From: Sphingomonadales bacterium
GTDB lineage: Bacteria > Pseudomonadota > Alphaproteobacteria > Sphingomonadales > Sphingomonadaceae
Length of the DNA stretch: 64,000 nucleotides
Assembly (NCBI GenBank): GCA_014763545.1
Contig: JACXVD010000008.1
Location: 1 to 64,000 of the forward strand
Direction of reading: 5' to 3'
The notes beneath the pieces were generated by a model. It saw nothing but the letters and a program-made list of their open reading frames with translations. It ran no database searches and had not been told where the DNA came from. The translations under genes and the position numbers were made by a program. Numbering within the stretch: the stretch's first letter is position 1; each line of letters starts with the position of its first letter. Below are positions 6,202 through 57,553 of the stretch, piece by piece.

Positions 6202-8082
6202 TTAGCGTGACTTTACATAGCTGCCGGGGGCATCTTCCAGCACCGTATCACCCTTGGTGCCGGGCTTGCGCTTGCCCTTTGCCGGGACGGTTTTGTCATG
6301 GACGGAGCGGATCCAGTCGATCCAGTCGGGCCACCAGCTTCCGGGATGTTCGGTCGCCCCGGCGACGAATTCCTCGAGGCTGCGCGCGCCGTCCTCATTG
6401 GTCCAATACTGGTATTTATGGGCCTCGGGCGGGTTGACGACCCCGGCGATGTGGCCCGACCCCGCCAGCAGGAACCGTGCCGGCCCCTTGAGGTGGTGCA
6501 TGATCCGCCACACGCTGTCGGGCGGCGCAATGTGATCCTCGCGGCCCGCCTGCACATAACAAGGTGTCTCGATCCGGCTGAGATCGATCGGCGTGTTGAG
6601 TGCATTGAGCGAATCCGGCTCGACCAGGCGGTTGTCGCGATAGAGATCCTTCAGATAGGCCTGATGCCAGGCCGAAGGCAGATTGGTGAAATCGCCATTC
6701 CAGTGCAGCAGGTCGAAGGCGGGATAGTCCTCGCCCAGCAGGTAGTTGTTGACCACGTAGTTCCAGATCAGGTCCGGCCCGCGCAGCAGGTTGAAGGTCG
6801 CCGAGAGATAGCGCCCGTCGAGATAACCGTCGGTGCCGAGCTGCTCGATCATCGCCAGCTGCCCGTCGTCGATGAAGTTGAGCAATTCGCCCGCCTTCTC
6901 GAAATCGACCTGCGCGGTGAAGAAGGTGGCGCTCTTGACCTTTTTGGCGTCGCCCCGGCGCGCGAGGACCGCCAGCGTCGCCGCCAGCGTGGTGCCTGCC
7001 ACACAATAGCCGATGGTGTGAACCGCCTTCACATCCAGCCGCTCGCGCACGAGGTCGATCGCCTCGATCTGGGCCGCGATGTAATCGTCCCATGTCACAT
7101 CGGCGAAGCTGGCATCGGCCGACTTCCAGCTGACGACGAAGACCGTCAGCCCCTGTTCCACCGCCCAGCGGATGAAGCTCTTCTTGGGATTCAGGTCGAG
7201 AATATAGAAGCGGTTGATCCACGGCGGGAAGATCACCAGCGGGGTTTCCTGCACCTCGTCGGTCGTCGGGCTGTACTGGATCAGCTGGTACAGCCGCGTC
7301 TGGTGGATCACCTTGCCCGGCGTAACCGCGATGTTGCGGCCCAGCTCGAAGGCTTCATTGTCGGTGTGGGTCAGCTGCCCGCGCTTGAGGTCGGCCAGCA
7401 AATGGGCAAACCCCTTTACCAGATTGTCGCCCCGGCTCGACAAGGTGCGCTCGACCACAAGGGGGTTGGTCATCGGGAAATTGGCCGGGCTCAACGCATC
7501 GATCAGCGTGCGCGTGGCGAAACGCAACTGCTCACGCTTGGCCGGTTCGACGCCCTTGACCTCGTCGACCATCGCCATCAGCTGGTCGGCGAGCATCAGG
7601 TAGGTCTGGTGGATCAGCGCAAAAATCGGCTCCTCGCGCCATTTCGGATCGGCGAACCGGCGGTCGCGGCGCGGCAGGTCCGGCTTCTTCGCGTCACCCT
7701 CGCCGGCTTCCGGGCCGATCCCGTAGTGGCCCAGCACCCGTTCCCACAAATCCAGGCTGTCGCGCCACAGCGCTTCCTGCCGCTCGGGCGAGGAGAGCGG
7801 CATATGGCTGTACCAGTCGGCCAGCAAATCCGCCCATTGCCCCGGATCGGCGAGCTTGGCGGGCAGTTCCGCCTGCGCGTCGAGGGCGCGCTCGGTCTGG
7901 AATTCGAACCACATGGACTGGATCTGGGTCGCGACCCCCAGCCAATGCTGCATATCTTCCATCGCCGGGTCGGCAGAGGTGACATCAGGCAGGAACTGCG
8001 CATACAGGCTGCGCGCCGCATCCGCCTGCATCGCCAGCAGATCGGTCAGTCCCTCGCCCGCCTTCTCGCCCTTTTCGGCCAT
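6202..8082 (-). CDS. phaC: Class I polyhydroxyalkanoate synthase PhaC
   Basis: A 626-residue enzyme that polymerises (R)-3-hydroxyacyl-CoA into PHA at the granule surface. The start at 8082 has GAGGAG upstream. The N-terminal half (about 1-200) is the dimerisation and granule-targeting region. The alpha/beta-hydrolase core carries the lipase-like box GYCVAG with nucleophile Cys360, Asp516 in REDHIAP and His544 in GSGHIAG, which together form the Cys-Asp-His triad. Length and single-subunit form fit class I. It lies upstream of and co-oriented with the phasin gene, with an operator region between them. Confidence 0.95.
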   Translation of the reverse strand: MAEKGEKAGEGLTDLLAMQADAARSLYAQFLPDVTSADPAMEDMQHWLGVATQIQSMWFEFQTERALDAQAELPAKLADPGQWADLLADWYSHMPLSSPERQEALWRDSLDLWERVLGHYGIGPEAGEGDAKKPDLPRRDRRFADPKWREEPIFALIHQTYLMLADQLMAMVDEVKGVEPAKREQLRFATRTLIDALSPANFPMTNPLVVERTLSSRGDNLVKGFAHLLADLKRGQLTHTDNEAFELGRNIAVTPGKVIHQTRLYQLIQYSPTTDEVQETPLVIFPPWINRFYILDLNPKKSFIRWAVEQGLTVFVVSWKSADASFADVTWDDYIAAQIEAIDLVRERLDVKAVHTIGYCVAGTTLAATLAVLARRGDAKKVKSATFFTAQVDFEKAGELLNFIDDGQLAMIEQLGTDGYLDGRYLSATFNLLRGPDLIWNYVVNNYLLGEDYPAFDLLHWNGDFTNLPSAWHQAYLKDLYRDNRLVEPDSLNALNTPIDLSRIETPCYVQAGREDHIAPPDSVWRIMHHLKGPARFLLAGSGHIAGVVNPPEAHKYQYWTNEDGARSLEEFVAGATEHPGSWWPDWIDWIRSVHDKTVPAKGKRKPGTKGDTVLEDAPGSYVKSR

Positions 8083-8243
8083 ATCCACTCCTCGCTTTGC
8101 GGCTGGGGTTACAACCAGTCGGCAATTTTCTGCAATCTCAACGTTAGTAGGATGCAATCTGCGCAATTGCACCCGCAAGCGTATTGCTCCACAATTACGT
8201 GCGCGTTGCATTCCGTTTCGCGCATCAAGATTGCCAGGGAACG

Positions 8244-9443
8244 ATGGATACCGAATTCTACCGCATCAAGCGCCTGCCGCCCTATGTCATCGCCGAAGTC
8301 AACGGCATGCGGGCCGCAGCACGCGCCGCGGGCAGGGACATCATCGACCTGGGCATGGGCAATCCCGACCTGCCGCCGCCCCAGCATGTGATCGACAAGC
8401 TGTGCGAAGTTGCGCAGAAGCCGGATGCCCATGGCTATTCCCAGTCCAAGGGCATCCCCGGGCTGCGCCGGGCGCAGGCGAATTATTACGGCCGCCGCTT
8501 CGGGGTCGACCTCGATCCCGAGAGCGAGGTGGTGGTCACCATGGGTTCGAAGGAGGGGCTGGCCAGCCTCGCCACCGCGATCACCGCGCCGGGCGATGTG
8601 GTACTGGCGCCCAACCCCAGCTACCCGATCCACACATTCGGCTTCATCATCGCCGGGGCGACGATCCGCTCCGTGCCGACGACGCCGGACGAGAATTATT
8701 TCCGCAGCCTCGAACGTGCGATGGCCTTCACCGTGCCGCGCCCGTCGATCCTGGTGGTGAATTACCCCTCCAACCCGACCGCGGAAACGGTCGATCTGGC
8801 GTTCTACGAACGGCTGGTCGCCTGGGCGAAGGAGAACAAGGTCTGGATCCTGTCCGACCTGGCCTATTCCGAGCTGTATTACGACGGCAACCCGACCCCC
8901 TCGATCCTGCAGGTGAAGGGGGCGAAGGATGTCGCGATCGAATTCACCTCCATGTCCAAGACTTATTCGATGGCGGGCTGGCGGATGGGTTTTGCGGTCG
9001 GCAACAAGGCGCTGATCGCGGCGATGACGCGGGTGAAGTCCTATCTCGACTACGGGGCCTTCACCCCGATCCAGGCAGCAGCCTGCGCGGCGCTCAACGG
9101 GCCGCAGGACATTGTCGAGAAGAACCGCGAACTCTACCAGAAGCGGCGCGATGTGATGGTCGATGCGTTCGGGCGTGCAGGATGGGAAATTCCCTCGCCG
9201 CCCGCATCGATGTTCGCCTGGGCGCCGCTCCCGCCTGCGCTCCGCGAAATGGGCAGCCTCGAATTTTCCAAGCAGCTGCTGACCCACGCCGAAGTCGCCG
9301 TGGCACCGGGCGTGGGCTATGGCGAGGATGGCGAGGGCTATGTCCGCATCGCCATGGTCGAAAACGAGCAGCGGCTTCGCCAGGCGGCGCGCAATATCAA
9401 GCGCTACCTCGCCTCGATGGGCGTCAACAGCTCGGCCGCCTGA
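8244..9443 (+). CDS. Fold-type I aminotransferase, AlaC/DapL-like
   Basis: A 399-residue PLP-dependent aminotransferase. Features in order: substrate-binding DLGMGNPDLPPP near residue 37, MGSKEGL at about 100, NYPSNPTA at about 173, the Asp/Tyr pair SDLAYSE at about 204, and the Schiff-base Lys239 in SMSKTYSMAGWRMGF. This pattern matches the glutamate-pyruvate aminotransferase AlaC (YfdZ) and LL-diaminopimelate aminotransferase-like group, pointing to alanine or diaminopimelate metabolism. The ATG at 8244 with AGGGA upstream was chosen over an upstream in-frame ATG. It is divergent from phaC, separated by 161 bp. Confidence 0.85.
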   Translation: MDTEFYRIKRLPPYVIAEVNGMRAAARAAGRDIIDLGMGNPDLPPPQHVIDKLCEVAQKPDAHGYSQSKGIPGLRRAQANYYGRRFGVDLDPESEVVVTMGSKEGLASLATAITAPGDVVLAPNPSYPIHTFGFIIAGATIRSVPTTPDENYFRSLERAMAFTVPRPSILVVNYPSNPTAETVDLAFYERLVAWAKENKVWILSDLAYSELYYDGNPTPSILQVKGAKDVAIEFTSMSKTYSMAGWRMGFAVGNKALIAAMTRVKSYLDYGAFTPIQAAACAALNGPQDIVEKNRELYQKRRDVMVDAFGRAGWEIPSPPASMFAWAPLPPALREMGSLEFSKQLLTHAEVAVAPGVGYGEDGEGYVRIAMVENEQRLRQAARNIKRYLASMGVNSSAA

Positions 9444-34435: not shown

Positions 34436-36442
34436 ATGAAGCCGGAACGGCTCACCACCTGGCACGACGCTGCCCGCTCGGCCCCAATCCCGGCAGTCGC
34501 GCAACCGCAAGAGCGTTGCTGGTTTTCGGCTGCCGAACTGGCCGACCTGCGCCTGCCGGGCCTGCCGGGGAGCAAACGCTCGGTGGCGCGCAAGGCCAAG
34601 GATGAACGCTGGGCAAGCCGGACCTGCCCCGACGGTGAGCTGCTTGCACGGCCGCGCATGGGCCAAGGCGGCGGGCTTGAGTTCCATCTCGCGGTGCTTC
34701 CCGGCCCCGCGCGGGTCGAACTGGTGCGGCGTGGCGTGGTTTCGCCGCCCGATGCAGAGCGCCCCGAAGCACCGCAGGCAGGCAATTGGGAATGGTTCGA
34801 CCAGCAAAGCCAGGACGTGCGTGAACGGGCAGCCGCGCGGCTGGAAGCCATGCGCGAAATCGACGTTCTGGAGCGCGCGGGCAGCACGACAACCGCCGCT
34901 ATCGCGCTTGTTTCGGCGCGGCACGATGTCAGCCAGGCGACGCTGTGGAACTGGCGCAAGCTGATCGAAGGCGTCGCGGCATCCGACTGGCTTCCGGCGC
35001 TGGCGGAGCGCCGGAAGGGTGGCGGCAAGAAAGCCGAAATGGACGAACTGCTGTGGCGGGAATTCCTGAGCGACTGGATGCGCCCGGAGGAGCCTCCGCT
35101 GTCGTCCTGCTATCGCCGGGCACAGGCTCGCGCGACCGAAAGAGGCATGTCATTGCCATCGGAGAAGGCGCTCAGGCGCCGCATCGAGCGTGAAGTCGAT
35201 CCCGCCGCAATCATGCTGGCGCGCAAGGGCAAGGAAGCGCTCGAGCGATCGATCCCCGACAATCGCCGCACGCTGGAAAGCCTGCATGCGATGCACATGG
35301 TCAATATCGATGGCCATGTCTTCGATGTGTTTGTCACCCCGCCCGATGGAGGAAAGAAAGTCCGCCCGGTTATGGTGGCGATCCAGGACGTCTACAGCCG
35401 CAAGATACTCGCATGGCGGCTCGATCTGTCGGAAAACGTGTTGGCGACCCGGCTCGCCTTTGCCGATTTGTTTCGCAATTTCGGCATTCCGCGCATCTGC
35501 CTGCTGGACAACAGCCGCACCTTCGCCAGCCTCGCGCTGACTGCCGGGGCGAGAACCCGCTACCGTAACAAGATTCGCGACGAAGATCCTGCGGGCCTGT
35601 TGGTTTCGCTCGGAATCGAGGTTCGCTTCGCCCAGATTTACCACGGCCAGTCGAAGCCGATCGAGCGCGCATTCCGCGACATCGCAAGCGACATCTCGCG
35701 CAGCCCCGCTTGCGCCGGAGCCTACACCGGCAACAGCCCGACCAACAAGCCGGCCAATTACGACGAGCGGGAGGTGCCCTGGGCCGAATTCGAGAGTATC
35801 GTTGCGCAGGGTATCGCGGACCACAACGCCCGGATCGGGCGGCGCGGCGGCGTTTGCAACGGCCGCAGTTTCGACCAGACTTTCGACCAGAGCTATGCGG
35901 TGAAAGCGATCCGCAAGGCGACGCCCGAGCAGCTGCGCATGGCTTTGCTGGCTGCCGAGCGGAAGCGGGTGAACAGCCGCACCGGCGAAATCAGCCTGTT
36001 CGGCAATCGTTACTGGTCGCCCGAATGCCGCCACTACCACGGGCAGATGGTCACTGTGCGGTTCGATCCCGACGACCTGCACAGCGAAGTGCATCTTTAC
36101 GGCCATGATGGTGCCTATCTGACCACCGCCCCGGTGATCGAGGATTACGGCTTCGCCGACCAGGCGGGCGCTAAGGCCGCGAGCAAACGCAAGAAGGACC
36201 ACAGGAAGCTGGCGCGGGAAACCCTGCGGCAGGAAGCACTGATCGAGGCGGAGGAACTGGCCGCCCGACAGCCGCGGACCGCAGCTGCGGAACTGCCTGA
36301 TCCGGGCGTGGTGGAGCTTGCACCGGTGCGGCGCACTGCAGGTGCCGCTGTGCGCAAGGTCGCACCGGCACCGAGGGTCACATCTGAAAGCGAAAGCAGG
36401 GTTTTCTCGGCGCTCCGCCTGGTGCGGGGAACCGAGGATTGA
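34436..36442 (+). CDS. Mu-type transposase A
   Basis: A 668-residue DDE transposase/integrase. The N-terminal winged helix (about 28-75) binds the internal enhancer; a second HTH region (about 135-180, ISARHDVSQATLWNWRKL-like) binds the ends. The RNase-H-fold core carries Asp292 (NIDGHVFD), Asp358 (LLDNSR) and Glu410 (GQSKPIERAFRD), spaced as in MuA. A beta-barrel domain follows with GNRYWSPECR, and then a basic C-terminal tail that contacts MuB and ClpX in Mu. Catalytic residues are intact, so transposition competence is likely. Confidence 0.95.
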   Translation: MKPERLTTWHDAARSAPIPAVAQPQERCWFSAAELADLRLPGLPGSKRSVARKAKDERWASRTCPDGELLARPRMGQGGGLEFHLAVLPGPARVELVRRGVVSPPDAERPEAPQAGNWEWFDQQSQDVRERAAARLEAMREIDVLERAGSTTTAAIALVSARHDVSQATLWNWRKLIEGVAASDWLPALAERRKGGGKKAEMDELLWREFLSDWMRPEEPPLSSCYRRAQARATERGMSLPSEKALRRRIEREVDPAAIMLARKGKEALERSIPDNRRTLESLHAMHMVNIDGHVFDVFVTPPDGGKKVRPVMVAIQDVYSRKILAWRLDLSENVLATRLAFADLFRNFGIPRICLLDNSRTFASLALTAGARTRYRNKIRDEDPAGLLVSLGIEVRFAQIYHGQSKPIERAFRDIASDISRSPACAGAYTGNSPTNKPANYDEREVPWAEFESIVAQGIADHNARIGRRGGVCNGRSFDQTFDQSYAVKAIRKATPEQLRMALLAAERKRVNSRTGEISLFGNRYWSPECRHYHGQMVTVRFDPDDLHSEVHLYGHDGAYLTTAPVIEDYGFADQAGAKAASKRKKDHRKLARETLRQEALIEAEELAARQPRTAAAELPDPGVVELAPVRRTAGAAVRKVAPAPRVTSESESRVFSALRLVRGTED

Positions 36443-39726: not shown

Positions 39727-40368
39727 ATGGGCAATGCCAGCGATCAATCCGAAATCCTCGTCGAAGGCTATTCGACGCGCTTCGTTGCCGCGTTCGACGA
39801 CCTTATCGATGTCGAGGGCGGCTACGTAGACGATCCTTCCGATCGTGGCGGCGCAACCAAATTCGGCATCAGCCTGCGCTTCCTGAAGGCAGAAGGCGCG
39901 TTCGATGAGGACGGCGATGGCTTCGCCGATTTCGATCTCGATTTCGATGGCGATATCGACGGAGCCGACATTCGCAAGCTGACGCCAGGCGATGCCCAGT
40001 TCCTGTATCACCGCTGCTTCTGGCAGGTGCTCGACTGCGAAAGCTTCCCTGTGCCGATTGGCGAGATGCTGTTCGACCAGGGCGTGAACGGCGGCAATGC
40101 CGCCGCAAAGAAGCTGCTGCAGCGGGCGATCAATGCCTGCCAGGCGCGGCGTGGACAGAATTTGATCGAGGTGGATGGCCAGCTCGGCGTCGCCACACGT
40201 GAAGCGCTCGACCGTGTCATCCACGCCAACTCAATCGGCATGGCAGGGCTGGTCGAGGCATTCCGTGAAGCTGTGCGTGATCGCTACCGCCAGATCGTGC
40301 GCCGTTACCCGAGCCAGAAGCGCTTCCTGCGCGGCTGGCTGGCGCGGGCGGAAAGGCTGGGCCGATGA
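39727..40368 (+). CDS. GH108-type endolysin
   Basis: 213 residues. The N-terminal glycosyl hydrolase 108 domain has catalytic Glu30 in DVEGGYVDDPSDRGGATKFGIS. The segment FLYHRCFWQVLDCESFPVPIGEMLFDQGVNGG and the C-terminal peptidoglycan-binding part complete it. An Asp/Phe-rich insert (FDEDGDGFADFDLDFDGDIDGAD, near residues 58-80) resembles a calcium-binding loop, unusual in this family. No signal peptide, so a holin is needed. First gene of the lysis operon. Confidence 0.85.
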   Translation: MGNASDQSEILVEGYSTRFVAAFDDLIDVEGGYVDDPSDRGGATKFGISLRFLKAEGAFDEDGDGFADFDLDFDGDIDGADIRKLTPGDAQFLYHRCFWQVLDCESFPVPIGEMLFDQGVNGGNAAAKKLLQRAINACQARRGQNLIEVDGQLGVATREALDRVIHANSIGMAGLVEAFREAVRDRYRQIVRRYPSQKRFLRGWLARAERLGR

Positions 40369-40967
40369 GCTTGCTGATCGCCCTTCGGAAGCTGGCCAGA
40401 TTGCTTGTGCGCTGGATCTTCGACGACTGGCGCAACGGGCCGCTGCTCTTCTTCGGCATCGCTTTTGCCATCATGGTTTTCCACCGCGCGCCGCAGCTGG
40501 AGGTCGAGCGCGATGCGGCCGTGGTGGGCTGGGAAGGCGAGAAGCTGGCGCACCGCGCGACCATCGAGAACTACCAGCGCGCGGCCCGTATCGCCCAGCA
40601 GAAGGCCGAGGCGAATGTCGCAAGGGTCAAGGCCGCCCAGGAAAAGGCCAGCCAGGAGATTGTCGATGATTACAAGGCTCGCCTTGCCGCCGCTCGCGAT
40701 CGCGCTGCTCGGATTGAGCGGCTGCGCTCCGCATCGCCCGCCGCAACCGATCCCGGCCGTACCGCAGCAGCTGGCGTGCCCGCAGCCGGCGCAGCCCCCG
40801 GCCGAGCTGGTGAAGCGCCCGGTGAAGATCGACTTCCTTCCGCCGGAGCGCTGACCGCCGCCGACGCACTGCTTTGTACCGAACAGGCCATCCAGCTCGA
40901 CGCACTGATTGACTGGGTACTGGCTCAAGCGGCGATCGACACTTCACCGAGCGAGGCGCACGAATGA
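40365..40967 (+). CDS. Inner-membrane spanin (Rz-like)
   Basis: 200 residues: a membrane anchor (LLFFGIAFAIMVFH, about 28-42), then a long coiled coil (about 50-120, EKLAHRATIENYQRAARIAQQKAEANVARVKAAQEKASQEIV), then a Pro/Ala-rich tail. Overlaps the endolysin stop. Works with the nested o-spanin to fuse inner and outer membranes in lysis. Confidence 0.75.
   Translation: MSLLIALRKLARLLVRWIFDDWRNGPLLFFGIAFAIMVFHRAPQLEVERDAAVVGWEGEKLAHRATIENYQRAARIAQQKAEANVARVKAAQEKASQEIVDDYKARLAAARDRAARIERLRSASPAATDPGRTAAAGVPAAGAAPGRAGEAPGEDRLPSAGALTAADALLCTEQAIQLDALIDWVLAQAAIDTSPSEAHE
40666..40854 (+). CDS. Outer-membrane lipoprotein spanin (Rz1-like), nested
   Basis: 62 residues read in the +1 frame inside the Rz-like gene: MITRLALPPLAIALLGLSGC signal peptide with lipobox LSGC (Cys20), followed by a Pro-rich mature part (HRPPQPIPAVPQQLACPQPAQPP). 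Fully embedded arrangement as in lambda Rz/Rz1. Confidence 0.75.
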   Translation: MITRLALPPLAIALLGLSGCAPHRPPQPIPAVPQQLACPQPAQPPAELVKRPVKIDFLPPER

Positions 40968-43039
40968 GCGACCAGACCGTCAACCCCGATCAGCTCGAGA
41001 ACATTACCGAAGTGCCGCCTGATCTGAAGGCAATCGTGTTTTCGCCGGCTGGCCCGCTCCAGGCGCTGCCTTTCGAGCTGCTGCTGGCGAAGCTGATCAA
41101 GGCCGACCTGGTCAAGGCTAACGAGGCCGATCTTCAAGCCGATGTGGCGCATGACGAAGACAGCGTTGCGGTCGTCATCAACGATCCCGATCCGCTGAAA
41201 TGCGGTTGGTGGCGCAAGATCGGCGCGAGTGGGGCAGGCAATTGGGCCCAGTTCGAGCAGTTCGCGAAATCAGTGCGCACCGCGGTCGAGACCGCGCGCG
41301 ACCAAGTACTAGGTTACGCCTCCGACGCTTCTGATTCGGCGGATGAGGCAGCCCTCTCCGCAGCCAACGCTGGAACAGCTGCGCTTGCCGCAGTGGAGCC
41401 GGTGCGACAACAAGCGAATGATTGGGTCCGCACCGACGAGCATGGCGAAAAGGCCTTGCTCGACATCGACCATCGCAATGCCCGTTTCTGGTTCAATGGA
41501 ATCGTCTACGCCAGCGCTGCTGCGCTCTATGCCGCGATGACCGGTGTCACCCAGCATGGTACCGAGCGAGTTGTCACGATGGGGCCGGTGCGGGACGGCA
41601 ATGAGTTGCTGGTTGGCGGTGCATTTGCCGACGCTGGCGATGTCGCCGAATGGACCGGAGGCGGTGGTGCAGTTGTCACCGCGCTGGCTCCTGGCATTGC
41701 GATCTCCGGGGCAGGCGGCTACGCCAGCCAGCAGATTACTGGCCTGACCGTTGGCGCAGCCTACCAGTTTCGGGTCACCGATCTTACAGCCGGCGCCAGC
41801 TATGGCCGTGTGTCAGTCGGTACCACAGCTGGTGGCAGCGAGATCATGGGTGCAACCAACGTCGCCAACGATGCGACCAGCACTTTCACGATCTACCCGA
41901 CCGCCAACACGATTTACATCAACCTGCTTGCCTGGGCCACGGGTGCGGAGCGGCGCTATAGCTTTGCCGGCTTCGAGCGGAATATCCCCTTCCATGGTTT
42001 TTCGCACACCTCGGGCACATTGATCGCCGAGTTCACCGAGCAGGCCGTGCCTGGCGCCAGCACGCTGTTGCATTTGCGTAATGAAGCCGGTGCTGTGATC
42101 ACCAAAAACATCCTGACGTTGGCCAGCGCAGCCACGGGAGATTCGAGCGGATCCATCCGCGCCGCCGACACGTCCTTCCAGTTCAACAGCGCGACGCTGG
42201 GGCGGGTCTTCGCCGGGCGGGACAATGTCCTTGCGATTGCTTGGGCAGCGAACGACGTGCAGGCCACTACCAACGGGCAGATGGCCGCCAATTCGGAAGT
42301 CAGCGTGGCATCGATCCCGACATTCGACCGCCTGTGCGTTGGGAATATCAGCGGCACTGGAATCATGGGCGGCACAATGCAGCGCCTAACCTATTTCCCG
42401 CGCCGGGTCGCCGCGCTTAGCGAGCGCGAAAGCTGGTTCGTCAAGCATCCTGATGCCATTCATATTCTGGGCGACAGTTTCGATACCGAAACACTGCGGC
42501 AAGCCATCGCGGCGCAATATCCGGCACGGCTTGTGACGCGGGATGGCGTCGGTGGATCGACCCTCCGCGAGCAGCTCGATCGTTACCTTCGCACTCCGGC
42601 GTTATGGTGCCGCACACTGGTGGTGATGGACGGAAGCGGAGATAGCGAGACGCGCACGCTCACCTGCCTGCCGGTAATGATCAAGACTGCTGGGCATCGA
42701 CGCATCGTCAAGATCGAGGCATCGCCAGCAAATGCGCTAGCCGGTTCGCCTGAGCGGGCAAGCTTCGATGCAATCATGGCGCAAGCGATCGAGATCATGG
42801 GGCCGGGCCACCACGTTACCTGCCTGGCGGCGCTTCAGGCGGCGAATGATGGCAGCCCGGAAGATCTGCAAGACGTGGCAGACAATATCGTTCCGCGCTC
42901 GCTCCGCTTACTGATCCCTGGTGGCGGTGGTGCTTACGATCCGATCCATGAAACGAACGTGGCGGAGACGATCCGTGCCAGTCAGCTCAAGGCTCACACC
43001 GATGCCTACCCCTGGCTGCTGCTTCCGGTGCCGGCATGA
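40964..43039 (+). CDS. Tail-fibre-like protein with C-terminal SGNH hydrolase domain
   Basis: 691 residues. The N-terminus (about 1-170) with FEQFAKSVRTAVETARDQVLGYASDASDSADEAALSAANAG is a fibre-type Ala-rich coiled region; repeated beta-rich segments follow (about 200-470). The C-terminal about 200 residues have SGNH blocks: GDSF (503-506, Ser505), GVGGST (528-533), DGSGDS (556-561, atypical block III without the usual Asn) and DPIH (659-662). Such domains de-acetylate surface glycans. The gene is in the lysis module, not after the baseplate. Probably a receptor-processing fibre, or a virion hydrolase. Confidence 0.65.
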   Translation: MSDQTVNPDQLENITEVPPDLKAIVFSPAGPLQALPFELLLAKLIKADLVKANEADLQADVAHDEDSVAVVINDPDPLKCGWWRKIGASGAGNWAQFEQFAKSVRTAVETARDQVLGYASDASDSADEAALSAANAGTAALAAVEPVRQQANDWVRTDEHGEKALLDIDHRNARFWFNGIVYASAAALYAAMTGVTQHGTERVVTMGPVRDGNELLVGGAFADAGDVAEWTGGGGAVVTALAPGIAISGAGGYASQQITGLTVGAAYQFRVTDLTAGASYGRVSVGTTAGGSEIMGATNVANDATSTFTIYPTANTIYINLLAWATGAERRYSFAGFERNIPFHGFSHTSGTLIAEFTEQAVPGASTLLHLRNEAGAVITKNILTLASAATGDSSGSIRAADTSFQFNSATLGRVFAGRDNVLAIAWAANDVQATTNGQMAANSEVSVASIPTFDRLCVGNISGTGIMGGTMQRLTYFPRRVAALSERESWFVKHPDAIHILGDSFDTETLRQAIAAQYPARLVTRDGVGGSTLREQLDRYLRTPALWCRTLVVMDGSGDSETRTLTCLPVMIKTAGHRRIVKIEASPANALAGSPERASFDAIMAQAIEIMGPGHHVTCLAALQAANDGSPEDLQDVADNIVPRSLRLLIPGGGGAYDPIHETNVAETIRASQLKAHTDAYPWLLLPVPA

Positions 43040-43870: not shown

Positions 43871-44184
43871 TGGGGTTCGCGAGCGATCTTACACAAGTTC
43901 AGGACGGCCATATCCGCCTGGCGGTGCTGCGCCTGCTCGACGAACAGCCAGGTTACCAGGCGAATGACAGCGTGCTGCATTCTGCGGTGGGCGCGATGGG
44001 CCTGAACTGCACGCGCGACCAGATGCGCGGCCATCTTGCCTGGCTGGCCGAACAGCGGATGATCACTACGATCGAAATCGCGGCCGGGCTGACTGTCGCC
44101 ACGCTGACCGAGCGTGGCGGCGATGTCGCCAATGGGCGCAGCCAGATCAAGGGCGTGCAGCGGCCTTCGCCCAAAGGCGGGTGA
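43870..44184 (+). CDS. ArsR-like winged-helix phage protein (Mu gp26 type)
   Basis: 104 residues: LAVLRLLDEQPGYQANDSVLHSAVGAMGLNCTRDQMRGHLAWLAEQRMITT is a winged-helix pattern. Position matches Mu gp26. Perhaps linked to terminase function. Confidence 0.68.
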   Translation: MGFASDLTQVQDGHIRLAVLRLLDEQPGYQANDSVLHSAVGAMGLNCTRDQMRGHLAWLAEQRMITTIEIAAGLTVATLTERGGDVANGRSQIKGVQRPSPKGG

Positions 44185-44188
44185 AGCG

Positions 44189-44794
44189 ATGGTCAGCCCG
44201 CGCGCAGCCAAGGCGGCCCGTCGGAAGGCGGCAACGAAGAACACGCCGTCCACGATCGACAAGCTCGATCCCGAGATCCGCGAGCTGATCGCGCATCTTC
44301 GGATCGACAAGGGCTACACCATCGATGAGGTGCGCGCCGCACTGGTGACGGAGATCGGCAAGGAACGTGCGCCGAGCCGGTCGGCGCTGGGCCGTCACGT
44401 CCGCCAGCTGGCCGATGTCTCGGCCGATCTGCGCGAAACGCAAATCTACGCCGAGGCACTGGCTCGCGAGGCAGGCGGCAAGACAGGCGGGCAGCTGATC
44501 GACATGAACAGCCAGCTGCTGCAGGCGAACATGTTCAAGCTGATGCTGGCCGAGCAGGAAGGCGAGGGGATCACGCTTTCGACCAAGGAAGCGAAGGAAT
44601 TCTCCGAGGCGCTGCGGAACATCGCGCTGATGCGCAAGACTGAGCTCGACGTGATCGAAAAGGCCGAAGCACGCGCGGCGAAGAAGGCGACCGCCGAGGC
44701 CGCGGAGAAAGCGACCAGGGCAGCACGCAGCAAGGGGCTGTCGAAGGATACGGTCGATGCCATCCGCCATGCTGTGCTGGGGAGCGATACGTGA
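44189..44794 (+). CDS. DUF3486 protein, small terminase candidate (Mu gp27 type)
   Basis: 201 residues. N-terminal HTH PSTIDKLDPEIRELIAHLRIDKGYTIDEVRAALV, then SRSALGRHVRQLADVSADLRET, then a long helical part (EKAEARAAKKATAEAAEKATR). The family precedes the large terminase in Mu-like phages and is the candidate DNA-recognition subunit. Confidence 0.78.
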   Translation: MVSPRAAKAARRKAATKNTPSTIDKLDPEIRELIAHLRIDKGYTIDEVRAALVTEIGKERAPSRSALGRHVRQLADVSADLRETQIYAEALAREAGGKTGGQLIDMNSQLLQANMFKLMLAEQEGEGITLSTKEAKEFSEALRNIALMRKTELDVIEKAEARAAKKATAEAAEKATRAARSKGLSKDTVDAIRHAVLGSDT

Positions 44795-45087
44795 TGCATC
44801 GGCGCGGAAAGTCCAGCCTGATGCGCATCGTGTTGACTAGCGTGCTGGTCGACGCCTTGGCGAATCTCATGCCGGTCGGCGGCGGCTCTGCCCCATCTGT
44901 CGTCATGGGCTCTCGTTGGCGTAACGGCCAATGGCGGAAAATCATTGCCGAGTATCCGAACGGCTGGAACGTCCGCATCAACTTCACCCGCACGGGCGAG
45001 ATATCCTCGACAAGCGCGGACATCCGGCTTGAAAGCCGGATCTGCGGCAAAAACGGCTCGATCGTTGTTGACGAGATGCCTGCATGA
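44794..45087 (+). CDS. Hypothetical phage protein between terminase subunits
   Basis: 97 residues (98 from a GTG at 44791). An N-terminal hydrophobic stretch (MRIVLTSVLVDALANLMPVGGG) precedes SRWRNGQWRKIIAEYPNGWNVRINFTRTG. Overlaps the terminase start by 4 bp. Not recognised; start uncertain. Confidence 0.45.
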   Translation: MHRRGKSSLMRIVLTSVLVDALANLMPVGGGSAPSVVMGSRWRNGQWRKIIAEYPNGWNVRINFTRTGEISSTSADIRLESRICGKNGSIVVDEMPA

Positions 45088-46625
45088 TCCGCTCTCCCGA
45101 AGATCAGGCCAAGCGGGACGAGTGGATTCGTCACCGCGAAATCCAGGGAGATCGTGAAGCGGCAGAACAGGCCCTGCTGCGACTGCCCAAGGGCGACTTG
45201 CTGCTTGTCTATCAGCAGCGCACGGTGGACCTGCTGTTCGCCGGTACCGCGCTGCTGGTGATCGAGAAGAGCCGCCGCATCGGGCTGACCTGGGGCGTGG
45301 CCGCCTTCGCCGCACTGAAGGCTGCCAGCGCGATGGACGCGGGCGGGCAAAACGTCTGGTACATGGGCTACGACAAGGACATGACCCTCGAATTCATCGA
45401 GGTCTGCGCCATGTGGGCGCGCGCGTTTGGCCTGGCCGCAGGTGAGATCGAGGAAGAGGAAGTCCTCGAAGCCGATGAGAAGGGGGTGAAGGCTTTCTCG
45501 ATCCGCTTCGCCAGCGGGTTCCGCATCACTGCCCTGCCCAGCGTTCCGCGCGCGCTGCGCGGCAAACAGGGCATCGTGATCATCGACGAGGCGGCGTTTC
45601 ACAAGAACGTCAACGAGGTGCTAAAGTCGGCAATGGCGCTGCTGATCTGGGGCGGCCAGGTGGTGGTGATTTCCACCCATGACGGCGTGGCGAACCCGTT
45701 CAACGTGCTGCTCGACGAGATCCGCGCCGGCAAGCGCAAGGGCATGCCGGTGAAAATTACCTTTGCCGATGCGATGGAGGCCGGCCTCTATGAGCGCGTC
45801 GCGCTGGTGGCGAAGACCAAGGGCACCGAGCTGCCGCCCAAGGAGCAGTGGGAAGCCGATATCCGCGCCTCCTATGGCGACGATGCCGCCGAAGAGCTGG
45901 ACTGCATCCCGGCCAAGGGCAGCGGCTCGCTGATCAGCCTCGAAGACATCATCGCGGCCGAGCATGACGATTGCGGTATCCCCGAACTCTACCAGGGCGG
46001 GCTGTGCTATTTCGGTCGCGACGTGGCGCGCCGGCGCGATGGCCAGATCCAGCTGGTGCTGGAGCTGATCGGGGATGTGCTGTGGGAGCGTGACGGCTAT
46101 CGCGAGATCGGGCAGAGCTTCGCGCACCAGGACGCGTTCTTCGACCGCATGTTCGAAACGCGCCGGATCGTCCAGGCGATGGTCGACCAGACAGGCATGG
46201 GCGAAAAGGTGGTCGAGGATGCGATCCGCCGGCATGGCGCAAGCCGCGTGGTCGGCGTGCTGCTGACCGGCCCGATGCGCGTCGATATCGCACTGGGCCT
46301 CGCCCGCCGGTTCCAGGAGCGCAAGATCCGCATCTGGAAGGATGCGCGTACGCGTGCCGATCTGATGGCACTCAAGAAGATCGGCAGCGAAGAATCAGGC
46401 GGCATCCGCATCGTCAACGATGGTGATGTCCATGCCGATGAGTTTTGGGCTTACGGCCTTGCCTCGCGCGCGTGCGACCTGGGCGGTTCGCTCTACGAGT
46501 ATCGCGGCGTCCGCGGCGACGGGCGGTTCAGCGGCATGCCCAAGCGCGGCGAACGCGGCTTCTTCCACCCTGACGACATTCGCACCGGAAGCGGCAACCG
46601 CTTTACCGGCAGAGGAGCCTGGTAA
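45084..46625 (+). CDS. Large terminase subunit (Mu gp28 type)
   Basis: 513 residues. ATPase domain with Walker A-like EKSRRIGLTW (about 60-69), VWYMGYDKDM, and Walker B GIVIIDEAAFHK. The C-terminal RNase-H-like nuclease starts at YFGRDVARRRDGQ, with later acids in AMVDQTGMGE and DVHADEFWA. It packages DNA by headful from the prophage end into adjoining host DNA. Confidence 0.9.
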   Translation: MIRSPEDQAKRDEWIRHREIQGDREAAEQALLRLPKGDLLLVYQQRTVDLLFAGTALLVIEKSRRIGLTWGVAAFAALKAASAMDAGGQNVWYMGYDKDMTLEFIEVCAMWARAFGLAAGEIEEEEVLEADEKGVKAFSIRFASGFRITALPSVPRALRGKQGIVIIDEAAFHKNVNEVLKSAMALLIWGGQVVVISTHDGVANPFNVLLDEIRAGKRKGMPVKITFADAMEAGLYERVALVAKTKGTELPPKEQWEADIRASYGDDAAEELDCIPAKGSGSLISLEDIIAAEHDDCGIPELYQGGLCYFGRDVARRRDGQIQLVLELIGDVLWERDGYREIGQSFAHQDAFFDRMFETRRIVQAMVDQTGMGEKVVEDAIRRHGASRVVGVLLTGPMRVDIALGLARRFQERKIRIWKDARTRADLMALKKIGSEESGGIRIVNDGDVHADEFWAYGLASRACDLGGSLYEYRGVRGDGRFSGMPKRGERGFFHPDDIRTGSGNRFTGRGAW

Positions 46626-53802: not shown

Positions 53803-54225
53803 ATGCCCCTCTTTGCCGATCTTGCCGCGATGCAGGCGCGCTTCGAGGACCGCGATCTCCTCCAGCTGACCGACGACGACAATTCCGGGACAATCGACGC
53901 GGCGCGGATCGATGCTGCGCTGGATCGGTCCGACGCGCTCATCACCAGCTATCTCGCCGCGCGCTATCGCGACACCGCCAGCCTGCATGGCCACGCGCTG
54001 TTGACCGATATTGCCTGCGATTACGCCTTTGCGCTGTTGTGGCGCAGCGACCCGCCCGAATGGGTGGCCCAGCGCCGCAAGGATGCGGTCGCCCGGCTGA
54101 GGGATATCGCAGCCGGTACGATCAAGCTCGACCAGGGCGAGGAGGCGAATGCCGCCCGGCCCGGCCAGATCCTGGTATCGACCGATCCGCCCCGCTTCGG
54201 TCGTGACAAGCTGGCGGGTTACTGA
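53803..54225 (+). CDS. DUF1320 head-completion-type protein (Mu gp36 type)
   Basis: 140 residues: MPLFADLAAMQARFEDRDLLQLTDDD, IDAALDRSDALITSYLAARYRD, LTDIACDYAFALLW, RRKDAVARLRDIAAGTIKL. Matches the DUF1320 pattern of connector proteins. The stop overlaps the next start by one base. Confidence 0.82.
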   Translation: MPLFADLAAMQARFEDRDLLQLTDDDNSGTIDAARIDAALDRSDALITSYLAARYRDTASLHGHALLTDIACDYAFALLWRSDPPEWVAQRRKDAVARLRDIAAGTIKLDQGEEANAARPGQILVSTDPPRFGRDKLAGY

Positions 54226-54734
54226 TGGTCGCCGCGATCCGCATCACCAGCAAGGGCGGGCAGGAGATCGAACGTCGCCTGGCGCGCTTCGTCGCGGCGA
54301 ACGAGGACATCGATCCGTTGCTGAGCGGCTTCGGGCTGTATCTGGAAAGCAGCACGATCGAGCGCTTCGAATTCGAACGGGCGCCGGACGGGAGCCGCTG
54401 GAAACCGTCGATCCGCGCAAAGACCGAAGGTGGCAAGACGCTCTACAAAAGCCCCGGCGGCTTGAGGGACAGTATTACCCACCTGGTGCATTCGCGCAGC
54501 GTCGAAGTCGGTACGAACAAGATCTACGCCGGTGTCCATCAGCACGGTGCCACGATCCGTGCGAAGAATGGCGGGTACCTGGCATTTCGGCTGCCGGGTG
54601 GCCTGGGGTTCCGCAAGGTGAAGGAAGTCGAGATCCCGGCGCGGCCATTCCTCGGCTTGTCGGGCGAGGACGAAACCGAGCTTCTGGCGCTGACGGAAGA
54701 CTACGAGCGCGAAGCGCTGGGCGGTGCGGCATGA
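54225..54734 (+). CDS. Virion morphogenesis / tail-completion protein (gpG type)
   Basis: 169 residues of the phage_tail_S/virion morphogenesis family: LSGFGLYLESSTIERFEFERAPDGSRWKPSIRAKTEGGKTLYKSPGGLRDSI, EVGTNKIYAGVHQHGATIRAKNGGYLAF, IPARPFLGLS. In Mu, gpG lies before the protease; here it follows gp36. Confidence 0.82.
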   Translation: MVAAIRITSKGGQEIERRLARFVAANEDIDPLLSGFGLYLESSTIERFEFERAPDGSRWKPSIRAKTEGGKTLYKSPGGLRDSITHLVHSRSVEVGTNKIYAGVHQHGATIRAKNGGYLAFRLPGGLGFRKVKEVEIPARPFLGLSGEDETELLALTEDYEREALGGAA

Positions 54735-55264
54735 CGGGCGCGACAGTCCTTCTGATCGTGCTGGAGGTGCTGGGGGGCTGGCTACTGGCCGATTTCCTGA
54801 GCGGCTTCTTGCATTGGGTCGAAGATCGCTATGGTCGCGAGAGCTGGCCGCTCATCGGCAAAAAGGTGATCGGACCCAACCGCCAGCATCACAGCGAACC
54901 GCTGGCGTTCACCCGCACCGATCCAATCACCCGAAACTGGTCGGCTGCATTGGCGAGCTTCGTTCTCGCAATGCCCTTGCTGCTGCTGTTCGGGCCGCAT
55001 CTGTGGCTGGTGGTTGCTTTCATCGGTGGCTGCATTGCGAACGAGGTACATTACTGGGCGCACTTGCCGCATCGTGCGCCGGGGATCGTCCAGGCACTGC
55101 AAGTGGCTGGACTGTGCCAGTCCCGCCGGCAACATGCGCTCCACCATGCCGCGCCGCATCTCAGCAACTATTGCTCGCTGACCGATTGGCTCAATCCATG
55201 GCTCGATCGGATTGGCTTCTGGCATTTCCTAGAAAGGCTTCTGCCTAACAGGTGGCTGGCATGA
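54731..55264 (+). CDS. CarF/TMEM189-type lipid desaturase inside the tail operon
   Basis: 177 residues, four or so membrane helices. Conserved histidine pattern of the Kua/TMEM189/CarF family: GFLHWVEDRYG (His28), NRQHHSEP (His53, His54), NEVHYWAHLPH (His107, His111), QHALHHAAPH (His135, 138, 139, 143), and the signature YCSLTDWLNPWLDRIGFW. Known members (PEDS1, Myxococcus CarF) desaturate the alkyl chain of ether lipids to make plasmalogens. Coupled by ATGA overlaps to the gpG gene before and the gp37 gene after, so it is expressed with virion genes. Substrate here unknown. Confidence 0.85.
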   Translation: MTGATVLLIVLEVLGGWLLADFLSGFLHWVEDRYGRESWPLIGKKVIGPNRQHHSEPLAFTRTDPITRNWSAALASFVLAMPLLLLFGPHLWLVVAFIGGCIANEVHYWAHLPHRAPGIVQALQVAGLCQSRRQHALHHAAPHLSNYCSLTDWLNPWLDRIGFWHFLERLLPNRWLA

Positions 55265-55869: not shown

Positions 55870-56081
55870 AGACCGATTTCTCCGAAGCGCAGCTCCGCCC
55901 TGCCACTGGTCGCCGCGTGCGCCACCCCGATGGGCGCCTGATGGCGGAAGGCGGGGAGAGCGTTCCGTTCAACACATTTTACCGGCGCCTGCTCGACGCC
56001 GGGGATCTCGAACCGGTTCCGGCGGACAAGCCCACCAGCACCAGCAAGAAAACCTCTTCGAAGGGGAGTGACGACGCATGA
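55866..56081 (+). CDS. DUF2635 small protein (Mu gp38 type)
   Basis: 71 residues: QLRPATGRRVRHPDGRLMAEGGESVPFNTFYRRLLDAGDLEPV, the DUF2635 motif, then a Ser/Lys-rich tail. Always sits before the sheath gene. Confidence 0.78.
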   Translation: MKTDFSEAQLRPATGRRVRHPDGRLMAEGGESVPFNTFYRRLLDAGDLEPVPADKPTSTSKKTSSKGSDDA

Positions 56082-57553
56082 TCAACTTCGCGACCATCCC
56101 GGCTGATATTCGCACGCCGGGTCAGCATATCGAATTCGACGCCAGCCGCGCTGTCTCTGGCCTGCCTCCGATCGCCAACCGGGTGTTGCTGATCGGTCAG
56201 AAGCTGGCCGCCGGTGTCGTAAACCAGCTGACGATCCAGCCGATCGTGGAGGCAGGGCAGGCGGTCAACAAATTCGGCCAGGGATCCATGCTGGCCCGCA
56301 TGGCACAGGCATACAAAGCGGCCGATCGCTTCTCCCAGGTCGATGCCATCGCGCTCGACGATGCCGTTGGCGCGAATGCGGCAACGGGCACGATCACTGT
56401 CACCGGGCCGGCAACGGCAGCCGGCACGCTCGCCCTAATGGTTTCAGGCACCCGTATTCCGATCGCGGTGGCGAATGGTACCACGGCGATCAATGTCGCT
56501 GCAGCGATCGCCGCTGCGGTGAACGCCTTGCCCGACCTTCCCGTGACGGCTGCTGTTGGCGCCAATCCCAACGAGCATGTCGTCACCTTCACCGCCCGCA
56601 ACAAGGGCACAGCGGGCAATGAAATCGACCTCCGCCACAGCCATTATTCGGGCGAGGCGCTGCCGCGCGGTATCGCGCTGGCGATTGTCGCCATGGCCGG
56701 AGGGGCAGGTGACCCTGATATCGACGCCATCTGGCCGGTGATCGGCGACAATTCCTATCGCACGATCGTGGTGGGTTTCATCGATGCGCCGACCCATGCC
56801 AAGCTGAAGGCTGAACTCGACGATCGCTGGGGCGAGGCGCGGATGCTCGAAAGCGTCGCCTATGCCGCCAAGCCGGGAAGCCAGGGTGTGCTTGCGGCGC
56901 TGGGCGCCGGGTTGAACAGTGAACTGGTGACCGTTCTGGGCAGCGGATACAGCCCGAGCAGCCCGGCCGAGGTCGCCGCCAGCTATGCCGCTGCCTGCGG
57001 CTATCACAGCGCCATCGACCCGGCCCGCCCGCTCCAGACGCTGGAGGTCAAGGGTATGTTCGCTCCCAAGCCGAACCAGCAATTCACCCGTGCCCAACGC
57101 GAGGCCCTGCTGCGCGACGGTATCGCCACCTTCACTGCCGATCAGGGCGGAACCTGCCGGATCGAGCGTTCGATCACCACCTACCAGACCGACGAATTCG
57201 GGCTGGCCGACGTTGCCTGGCTCGATCTCGAAACGGTTACGACCACGGCCTATCTTCGGGCGAGTTTGCGCGGCCGGATCGCGCAGAAGTTCCCGCGGCA
57301 CAAGTTGGCCGGCGACGATGCGCGGTTCGGTGCCGGGCAGGCCGTCGTCACGCCGAAGATCCTGCGTGCCGAGCTGATCGCGCTCGCTCGCGACTGGGAA
57401 GAGGCTGGCCTGGTCGAAGGGTTGGACCAGTATGTCGCCGACCTGATTGTCGAGCGCGACGCTGGCGATCCGAACCGGGTCAACGCGCTGGTTCCGCCCG
57501 ACATCGTCAACCAGTTCCGCAGCTTCGCCGCCGCGATCCAGTTCCGCCTCTGA
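56078..57553 (+). CDS. Contractile tail sheath protein (gpL)
   Basis: 491 residues. Start IPADIRTPGQHIEFDASRAVSGLPPIANRVLLIGQ and C-terminus NRVNALVPPDIVNQFRSFAAAIQFRL are typical gpL ends. The variable outer domain lies in the middle (about 95-190). Shows that the phage has a contractile (myovirus) tail. Confidence 0.92.
   Translation: MINFATIPADIRTPGQHIEFDASRAVSGLPPIANRVLLIGQKLAAGVVNQLTIQPIVEAGQAVNKFGQGSMLARMAQAYKAADRFSQVDAIALDDAVGANAATGTITVTGPATAAGTLALMVSGTRIPIAVANGTTAINVAAAIAAAVNALPDLPVTAAVGANPNEHVVTFTARNKGTAGNEIDLRHSHYSGEALPRGIALAIVAMAGGAGDPDIDAIWPVIGDNSYRTIVVGFIDAPTHAKLKAELDDRWGEARMLESVAYAAKPGSQGVLAALGAGLNSELVTVLGSGYSPSSPAEVAASYAAACGYHSAIDPARPLQTLEVKGMFAPKPNQQFTRAQREALLRDGIATFTADQGGTCRIERSITTYQTDEFGLADVAWLDLETVTTTAYLRASLRGRIAQKFPRHKLAGDDARFGAGQAVVTPKILRAELIALARDWEEAGLVEGLDQYVADLIVERDAGDPNRVNALVPPDIVNQFRSFAAAIQFRL

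Follow-up and report, generated by a model that had tools for sequence, protein, structure and literature searches.

Membrane proteins of the PF10520 (Lipid_desat) family include plasmanylethanolamine desaturase, known as PEDS1 or TMEM189 in the mouse and as CarF in M. xanthus, and plant and algal FAD4, a phosphatidylglycerol delta-3-trans desaturase. Studies of mouse PEDS1 and of CarF from M. xanthus established eight histidines and one aspartate (mouse D100) as essential (PMC8960569, PMC9131029). A ninth histidine (mouse H131, CarF H113) occurs in functional PEDS1 and is missing from plant and alphaproteobacterial homologues that do not complement (PMC9131029), and the mouse F118A variant retains 6% activity (PMC8960569). 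Phage lipid desaturases have a precedent, and viral desaturases have been proposed to change membrane fluidity for infection and release (PMC7300359). In phage Mu, lysis proceeds through steps at the membrane in which a SAR endolysin, spanins and the releasin gp25 take part (PMC9239132).

Here we describe a PF10520 gene lying among the virion genes of a prophage, at positions 54731..55264 (+ strand) of the window, that is, of the whole 64,000-nt stretch of DNA analysed. It has an ATG start and a TGA stop, codes for 177 aa and belongs to a phage subfamily with Asn at the position of PEDS1 F118. Family, histidine set, embedding, mobility and distribution are read directly from sequence.

Gene and operon context

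Upstream of the PF10520 gene lie, in order, transposase A (34436..36442, +), which marks the element as Mu-like, the B protein, an endolysin with which the lysis region begins (PF05838 Glyco_hydro_108; 39727..40368, +), the small and large terminase subunits (44114..46625, +), whose flanks are a site of the homologue in other Mu-like phages, and the portal. This gene order identifies the element, carried by a Sphingomonas-like bacterium, as a Mu-like prophage. Closer in, the order is the Mu gp36 homologue (head-tail adaptor; 53803..54225, +), the tail completion gene gpG/Phage_tail_S (PF05069; 54225..54734, +), the enzyme gene, the Mu gp37 homologue (PF08873; 55261..55869, +), the tail sheath gene (56078..57553, +) and the tube gene.

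The ORF is a real gene and not a chance reading frame. Both junctions are ATGA overlaps, as the initial annotation had described: the start codon at 54731 shares bases with the gpG stop (54732-54734), and the stop of the enzyme gene (55262-55264) overlaps the gp37 ATG at 55261. In a simple consensus scan no promoter-like site was found near the gene, and one weak terminator-like site lay on the opposite strand. Since translational overlaps on both sides are combined with the lack of a promoter-like site, co-expression with the late genes is the most probable arrangement, and the gene is in all likelihood expressed late. The same features contradict an autonomously transcribed 'moron' with its own promoter and terminator.

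Elsewhere in the window, a 691-aa ORF (40964-43039) lies between the endolysin region and a gp25-like gene. Pfam and PHROG searches gave no match for it, and pieces of it recur in the related phages L056, L093 and L141.

Catalytic residues and predicted fold

The product is a hydrophobic membrane protein that matches PF10520 at 151.6 bits (E 2.9e-44; cut-off 26.4 bits), while the fatty acid hydroxylase superfamily PF04116 scores 26.2 bits (E 1.2e-5), below its Pfam cut-off of 31 bits. Together with the Mu-like neighbours, the PF10520 match bears out the earlier claim of a lipid-modifying membrane enzyme in a phage head-tail operon. Alignment to PEDS1 also recovered the full set of conserved histidines that had been claimed, and the essential aspartate with them: H28, H53, H54, H107, H111, H135, H138 and H139 correspond to mouse H96, H121, H122, H187, H191, H215, H218 and H219, and D32 to D100, in the same order and, except for one shorter loop, with the same spacing. 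Their codons lie on the + strand at 54812..54826 (H28 to D32), 54875..54919 (from P49-N50 through H53-H54 to T63), 55049..55063 (H107 to H111) and 55133..55147 (H135, H138 and H139). The YCSLTDWLNPWLDRIGFW signature occupies residues 147-164. Asn50 stands at the F118 position, so that the chemistry may differ, and Thr63 takes the place of the ninth, PEDS1-only histidine H131.

Across 61 distinct phage proteins, the equivalents of H96, H122, H187, H191, H215 and H219 are invariant (61/61) and those of H121, H218 and D100 are present in 60/61; the F118 position is Asn in 60/61, and the H131 position is variable, with His in 3. The enzyme class of the gene product is well supported by these comparisons, and the window protein is very probably a PF10520 membrane enzyme active in lipid modification. 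A few members depart from the catalytic set and are possibly inactive: H121 is replaced by Asn in L108 and L109 (about 8004-8528), and H218 by Leu in L111 (416-958).

Evidence on the fold comes from an AlphaFold2 model, VIA-align and the viral structure library BFVD. The model, built with 21 sequences, has a pLDDT of 88.8 and a pTM of 0.83. Its best PDB match by VIA-align is the di-metal lipid hydroxylase domain of Scs7p (148 residues, rmsd 4.4 Å), at Z 6.9 against Z 3.9 for the next unrelated row and short of the tool's own safe level of Z 8. The top BFVD match is a giant-virus (Harvfovirus) Lipid_desat protein (TM 0.69, E 1.1e-5). A Foldseek search of the model against the PDB returned nothing at E <= 0.001 (Scs7p, E 2.1), and by sequence neither the protein nor a 20-row profile retrieved a credible relative from the PDB. 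The match to Scs7p is uninformative on substrate.

Distribution and movement among phages

Dozens of other bacterial viruses carry relatives of the PF10520 gene, in most cases among their late genes. Scans of IMG/VR gave 20 loci and then 107, of which 80 were kept; in the GenBank phage set, a single isolated phage, vB_EliS-L02, and an uncultured phage of 595 kb each had a relative; and whole-genome searches placed members of the clade in a small number of Sphingomonadaceae prophages. Many members are found in phages of Sphingomonadaceae and Erythrobacteraceae. Neither a plasmid search with the window protein nor a genome-contig search with the single window sequence found anything, and PHROGs v4 has no match for the window protein or 10 relatives.

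The tree has a phage-dominated clade of 56 of the 66 rows, including five alphaproteobacterial chromosomal proteins (support 100/99). By tree position and residues, the window protein belongs to a separate, phage-dominated subfamily, apart from PEDS1/CarF, FAD4 and the chromosomal PF10520 proteins of Sphingomonadaceae; the distinction from FAD4 is drawn from residues, and that from PEDS1/CarF from residues and model score. Chromosomal relatives were found in other alphaproteobacterial families, some grouping with the phage clade, and four such groups (f123, f153, f70 and f29) were called chromosomal by reading their neighbours by eye. In f123 (L063 and L064), the chromosomal member lies two genes from an opposite-strand lysozyme-like ORF, again as read by eye. 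A search of the host genome found no PF10520 gene other than that of the window, and the chromosomal proteins of Sphingomonadaceae form a distant clade; a recent gain from a copy of the host's own was rejected on these grounds.

The gene occupies at least four positions in Mu-like phages: between gpG and gp37 (the window, L025-L027, L031, L032, L042, L043, L071, L075 and L076), between gp26 and TerS (L024, L028, L030 and L055), between TerS and TerL (L001 and L090) and between TerL and the portal (L056). The first of these is where the initial annotation had proposed to look in other Mu-like phages, and several do carry the gene there. In HK97-like phages (L023, L034, L088 and L091) it adjoins head-closure or tail-completion genes; in P2-like phages (L029, L057, L099, L102, L106 and others) it follows the endolysin and precedes tail completion, the endolysin-PF10520 order being seen in eight P2-like loci; and in Cbk-like phages (L021, L033 and L035-L039) it stands between PhoH and the portal. 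In L105 its neighbours are an amidase endolysin (E 7.8e-57) on one side and an Rz-like spanin (E 1.1e-3) on the other.

On the tree, four label changes were counted for HK97-like members and four for gpG-gp37 members. These patterns indicate several transfers of the gene from one phage type to another and, probably, more than one arrival in the gpG-gp37 slot; mobility of the gene is well supported. A single slot common to all viral members was dropped on the tree and slot evidence. The gpG-gp37 site is empty in the close relatives L072 and L079, and by these comparisons the gene is an accessory, not a fixed, part of the Mu-like operon. The earlier description of a 'stable part of the late operon' is thus half right: dN/dS of 0.04-0.34 between relatives speaks for purifying selection, but slot and phage type vary and close relatives lack the gene.

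Small ORFs with two predicted TM segments (67-79 aa) also occur at the gpG-gp37 site of related Mu-like phages, either alone, as the only ORF there (L077:8990-9193 and L080:8969-9208), or just 5′ of the PF10520 gene (among them L025:2202-2405, L031:7744-7947 and L071:8430-8651). Two-TM ORFs accompany the PF10520 gene in L032 and L043 as well. Of these small ORFs, those tested had no Pfam match.

Proposed role and alternatives

Catalysis, late timing, substrate and benefit are what we infer for this gene. Our reading, to which we assign a probability of roughly 0.45 as a whole, is that of a mobile late-operon accessory gene whose di-iron lipid desaturase or hydroxylase would alter host membrane lipids just before lysis. 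The product would be a small integral-membrane di-metal (presumably di-iron) enzyme, encoded by a gene that would hop between late operons of unrelated tailed phages. Having no promoter of its own, it would be made alongside virion and lysis proteins, use O2 and host electron donors at the cytoplasmic membrane, and, towards the end of infection, alter the acyl chains of the bulk phospholipids of the host. The altered membrane order would serve membrane-dependent late steps, most likely lysis (the action of holin, endolysin and spanin), with adsorption or superinfection control as a less likely benefit.

Recurrence among late genes of Mu-like, HK97-like, P2-like and Cbk-like phages is consistent with this reading, as are the position beside lysis genes in L105 and the eight P2-like loci and the two-TM membrane ORFs that share the gpG-gp37 slot. 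Action on acyl chains of membrane phospholipids, and not on an exotic lipid, is the somewhat favoured substrate assignment. A benefit through lysis or release is proposed tentatively and falls short of even odds in our judgement; by analogy with Mu, a late membrane-lipid enzyme could affect Mu-type membrane lysis events. The link to lysis is not general: connector genes flank the gene in the window, and the recurrent slots may simply mark places in the late operon where insertions are tolerated. No electron-donor gene was noticed beside the PF10520 gene. A bolder version, a phage-specialised PF10520 class with a new substrate or reaction that would set or aid lysis by chemical remodelling of the cytoplasmic membrane, we regard as rather unlikely.

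Sphingomonads possess glycosphingolipids, and the enzyme might instead modify a lineage-specific envelope lipid, such as the ceramide of those glycosphingolipids, with a surface change that would block adsorption or superinfection. The many members in phages of Sphingomonadaceae and Erythrobacteraceae would fit such a role, as would a host with no other PF10520 gene and a nearest solved fold that belongs to a sphingolipid fatty-acid hydroxylase. But the Scs7p match is silent on substrate, relatives are also present in viral contigs without detectable neighbour genes in common with sphingomonad phages (many of L094-L147), chromosomal relatives from other alphaproteobacterial families group with the clade, and a function in lysogeny is ill-suited to a late-operon position. 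We consider this explanation unlikely.

Equally, the empty sites in L072 and L079 and the many slots and transfers could be those of a selfish or nearly neutral passenger that late operons tolerate and that is of benefit only under special conditions, for example cold or photo-oxidative stress. Against a passenger stand purifying selection, the near-invariance of the catalytic residues in the 61 proteins and the repeated changes of phage type, and we give this account only a small chance.

A true CarF/PEDS1, as the initial annotation had it, would make plasmalogens from host alkyl-ether PE and affect oxidative stress or signalling. PlasmethDesatCarF is indeed the best NCBIfam model (E 3.4e-28), and the eight histidines and the D100 equivalent are in place; however, the protein scores 98.8 bits against the cut-off of 500 for the equivalog NF045946. 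That score, together with Thr63 and Asn50, marks the phage proteins as a third group and not PEDS1. CarF-route plasmalogen synthesis requires alkyl-ether lipids, and alkyl-DHAP synthase (AGPS) was not found in the host genome (97.55% complete), a result that bears on the AGPS route and not on the anaerobic PlsA route. Of four host PF02913 proteins, three resemble vanillyl-alcohol/eugenol oxidases much more strongly than alkyl-DHAP synthase, and the remaining one resembles D-2-hydroxyglutarate dehydrogenase (D-2-hydroxyacid dehydrogenase type). Planctomycetota proteins from the same search retain both F118 and H131, which sets the phage clade apart. The plasmanylethanolamine desaturase identity is accordingly abandoned as very improbable. 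Members L100 and L103, with His at position 131, were considered as a rescue of PEDS1 identity and rejected, Asn being at the F118 position there too.

The Planctomycetota proteins come from MAGs (L044:9962-10501 and L045:9953-10510), and that of L044 scores 141 bits to the NCBIfam CarF model; the phylum lies outside the bacterial groups named for CarF (PMC9131029). The 595-kb uncultured phage likewise codes for a PF10520-like protein that is PEDS1-type by residues, with F118 and H131 (L022:5983-6441).

Repurposing of the PF10520 fold for a structural or assembly function in the head-tail connector, suggested by the place between gpG and gp37 and, in several phage types, close to tail-completion genes, is scarcely credible for a hydrophobic membrane protein that retains the catalytic histidines, is absent from phages with the same connector genes and has relatives adjoining lysis or terminase genes.

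Accounts of phage lysis centre on proteins, namely holin, endolysin, spanin and releasin. If the reading of a late lipid-altering enzyme is true, a widespread late-operon enzyme that changes lipids would amount to a lipid-based layer of phage lysis. The family has so far been overlooked: it has no PHROG, and the protein of the sole isolated phage among the GenBank records searched is annotated as hypothetical. Among the publications examined that name PF10520, none is on phages by title and abstract. For bacterial PF10520 matches in general, plasmalogen desaturase is no safe default name.

Comparison with known systems

CarF/PEDS1 shares with the window protein its PF10520 membership, the eight essential histidines, D100 and a membrane location, whereas about 55 N-terminal profile positions of NF045946 are left unmatched. 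FAD4 has the same family and histidine set, but in the window protein Asn replaces F118, a residue described as conserved across FAD4 and PEDS1, and Thr stands where plant homologues mostly have Arg (PMC8960569, PMC9131029). The chromosomal PF10520 proteins of Sphingomonadaceae, with the same eight histidines, differ by a separate clade (100/100), a longer N-terminus and the residues F118 and R131.

The desaturases of cyanophages and the Arctic vFAD are likewise phage-borne and thought to alter host membrane unsaturation; they are described as acyl-desaturases that have three His motifs and SCD-like models (PMC7300359). Unlike these classical desaturases, the window protein belongs to PF10520, has another arrangement of histidines and is embedded among virion and lysis genes. 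Its counterpart from the one isolated phage found is UIS25202.1 of the Cbk-like Erythrobacter phage vB_EliS-L02, annotated only as a hypothetical protein in a genome paper that mentions neither a desaturase nor lipids (PMC9127768). It belongs to the same subfamily (42% identity) and also lies beside head genes, in the order PhoH, gene, portal, but in a phage of a different type. Phage lipid desaturases as such were already known; what is new is a PF10520 subfamily with a signature of its own, without a PHROG and mobile in late operons.
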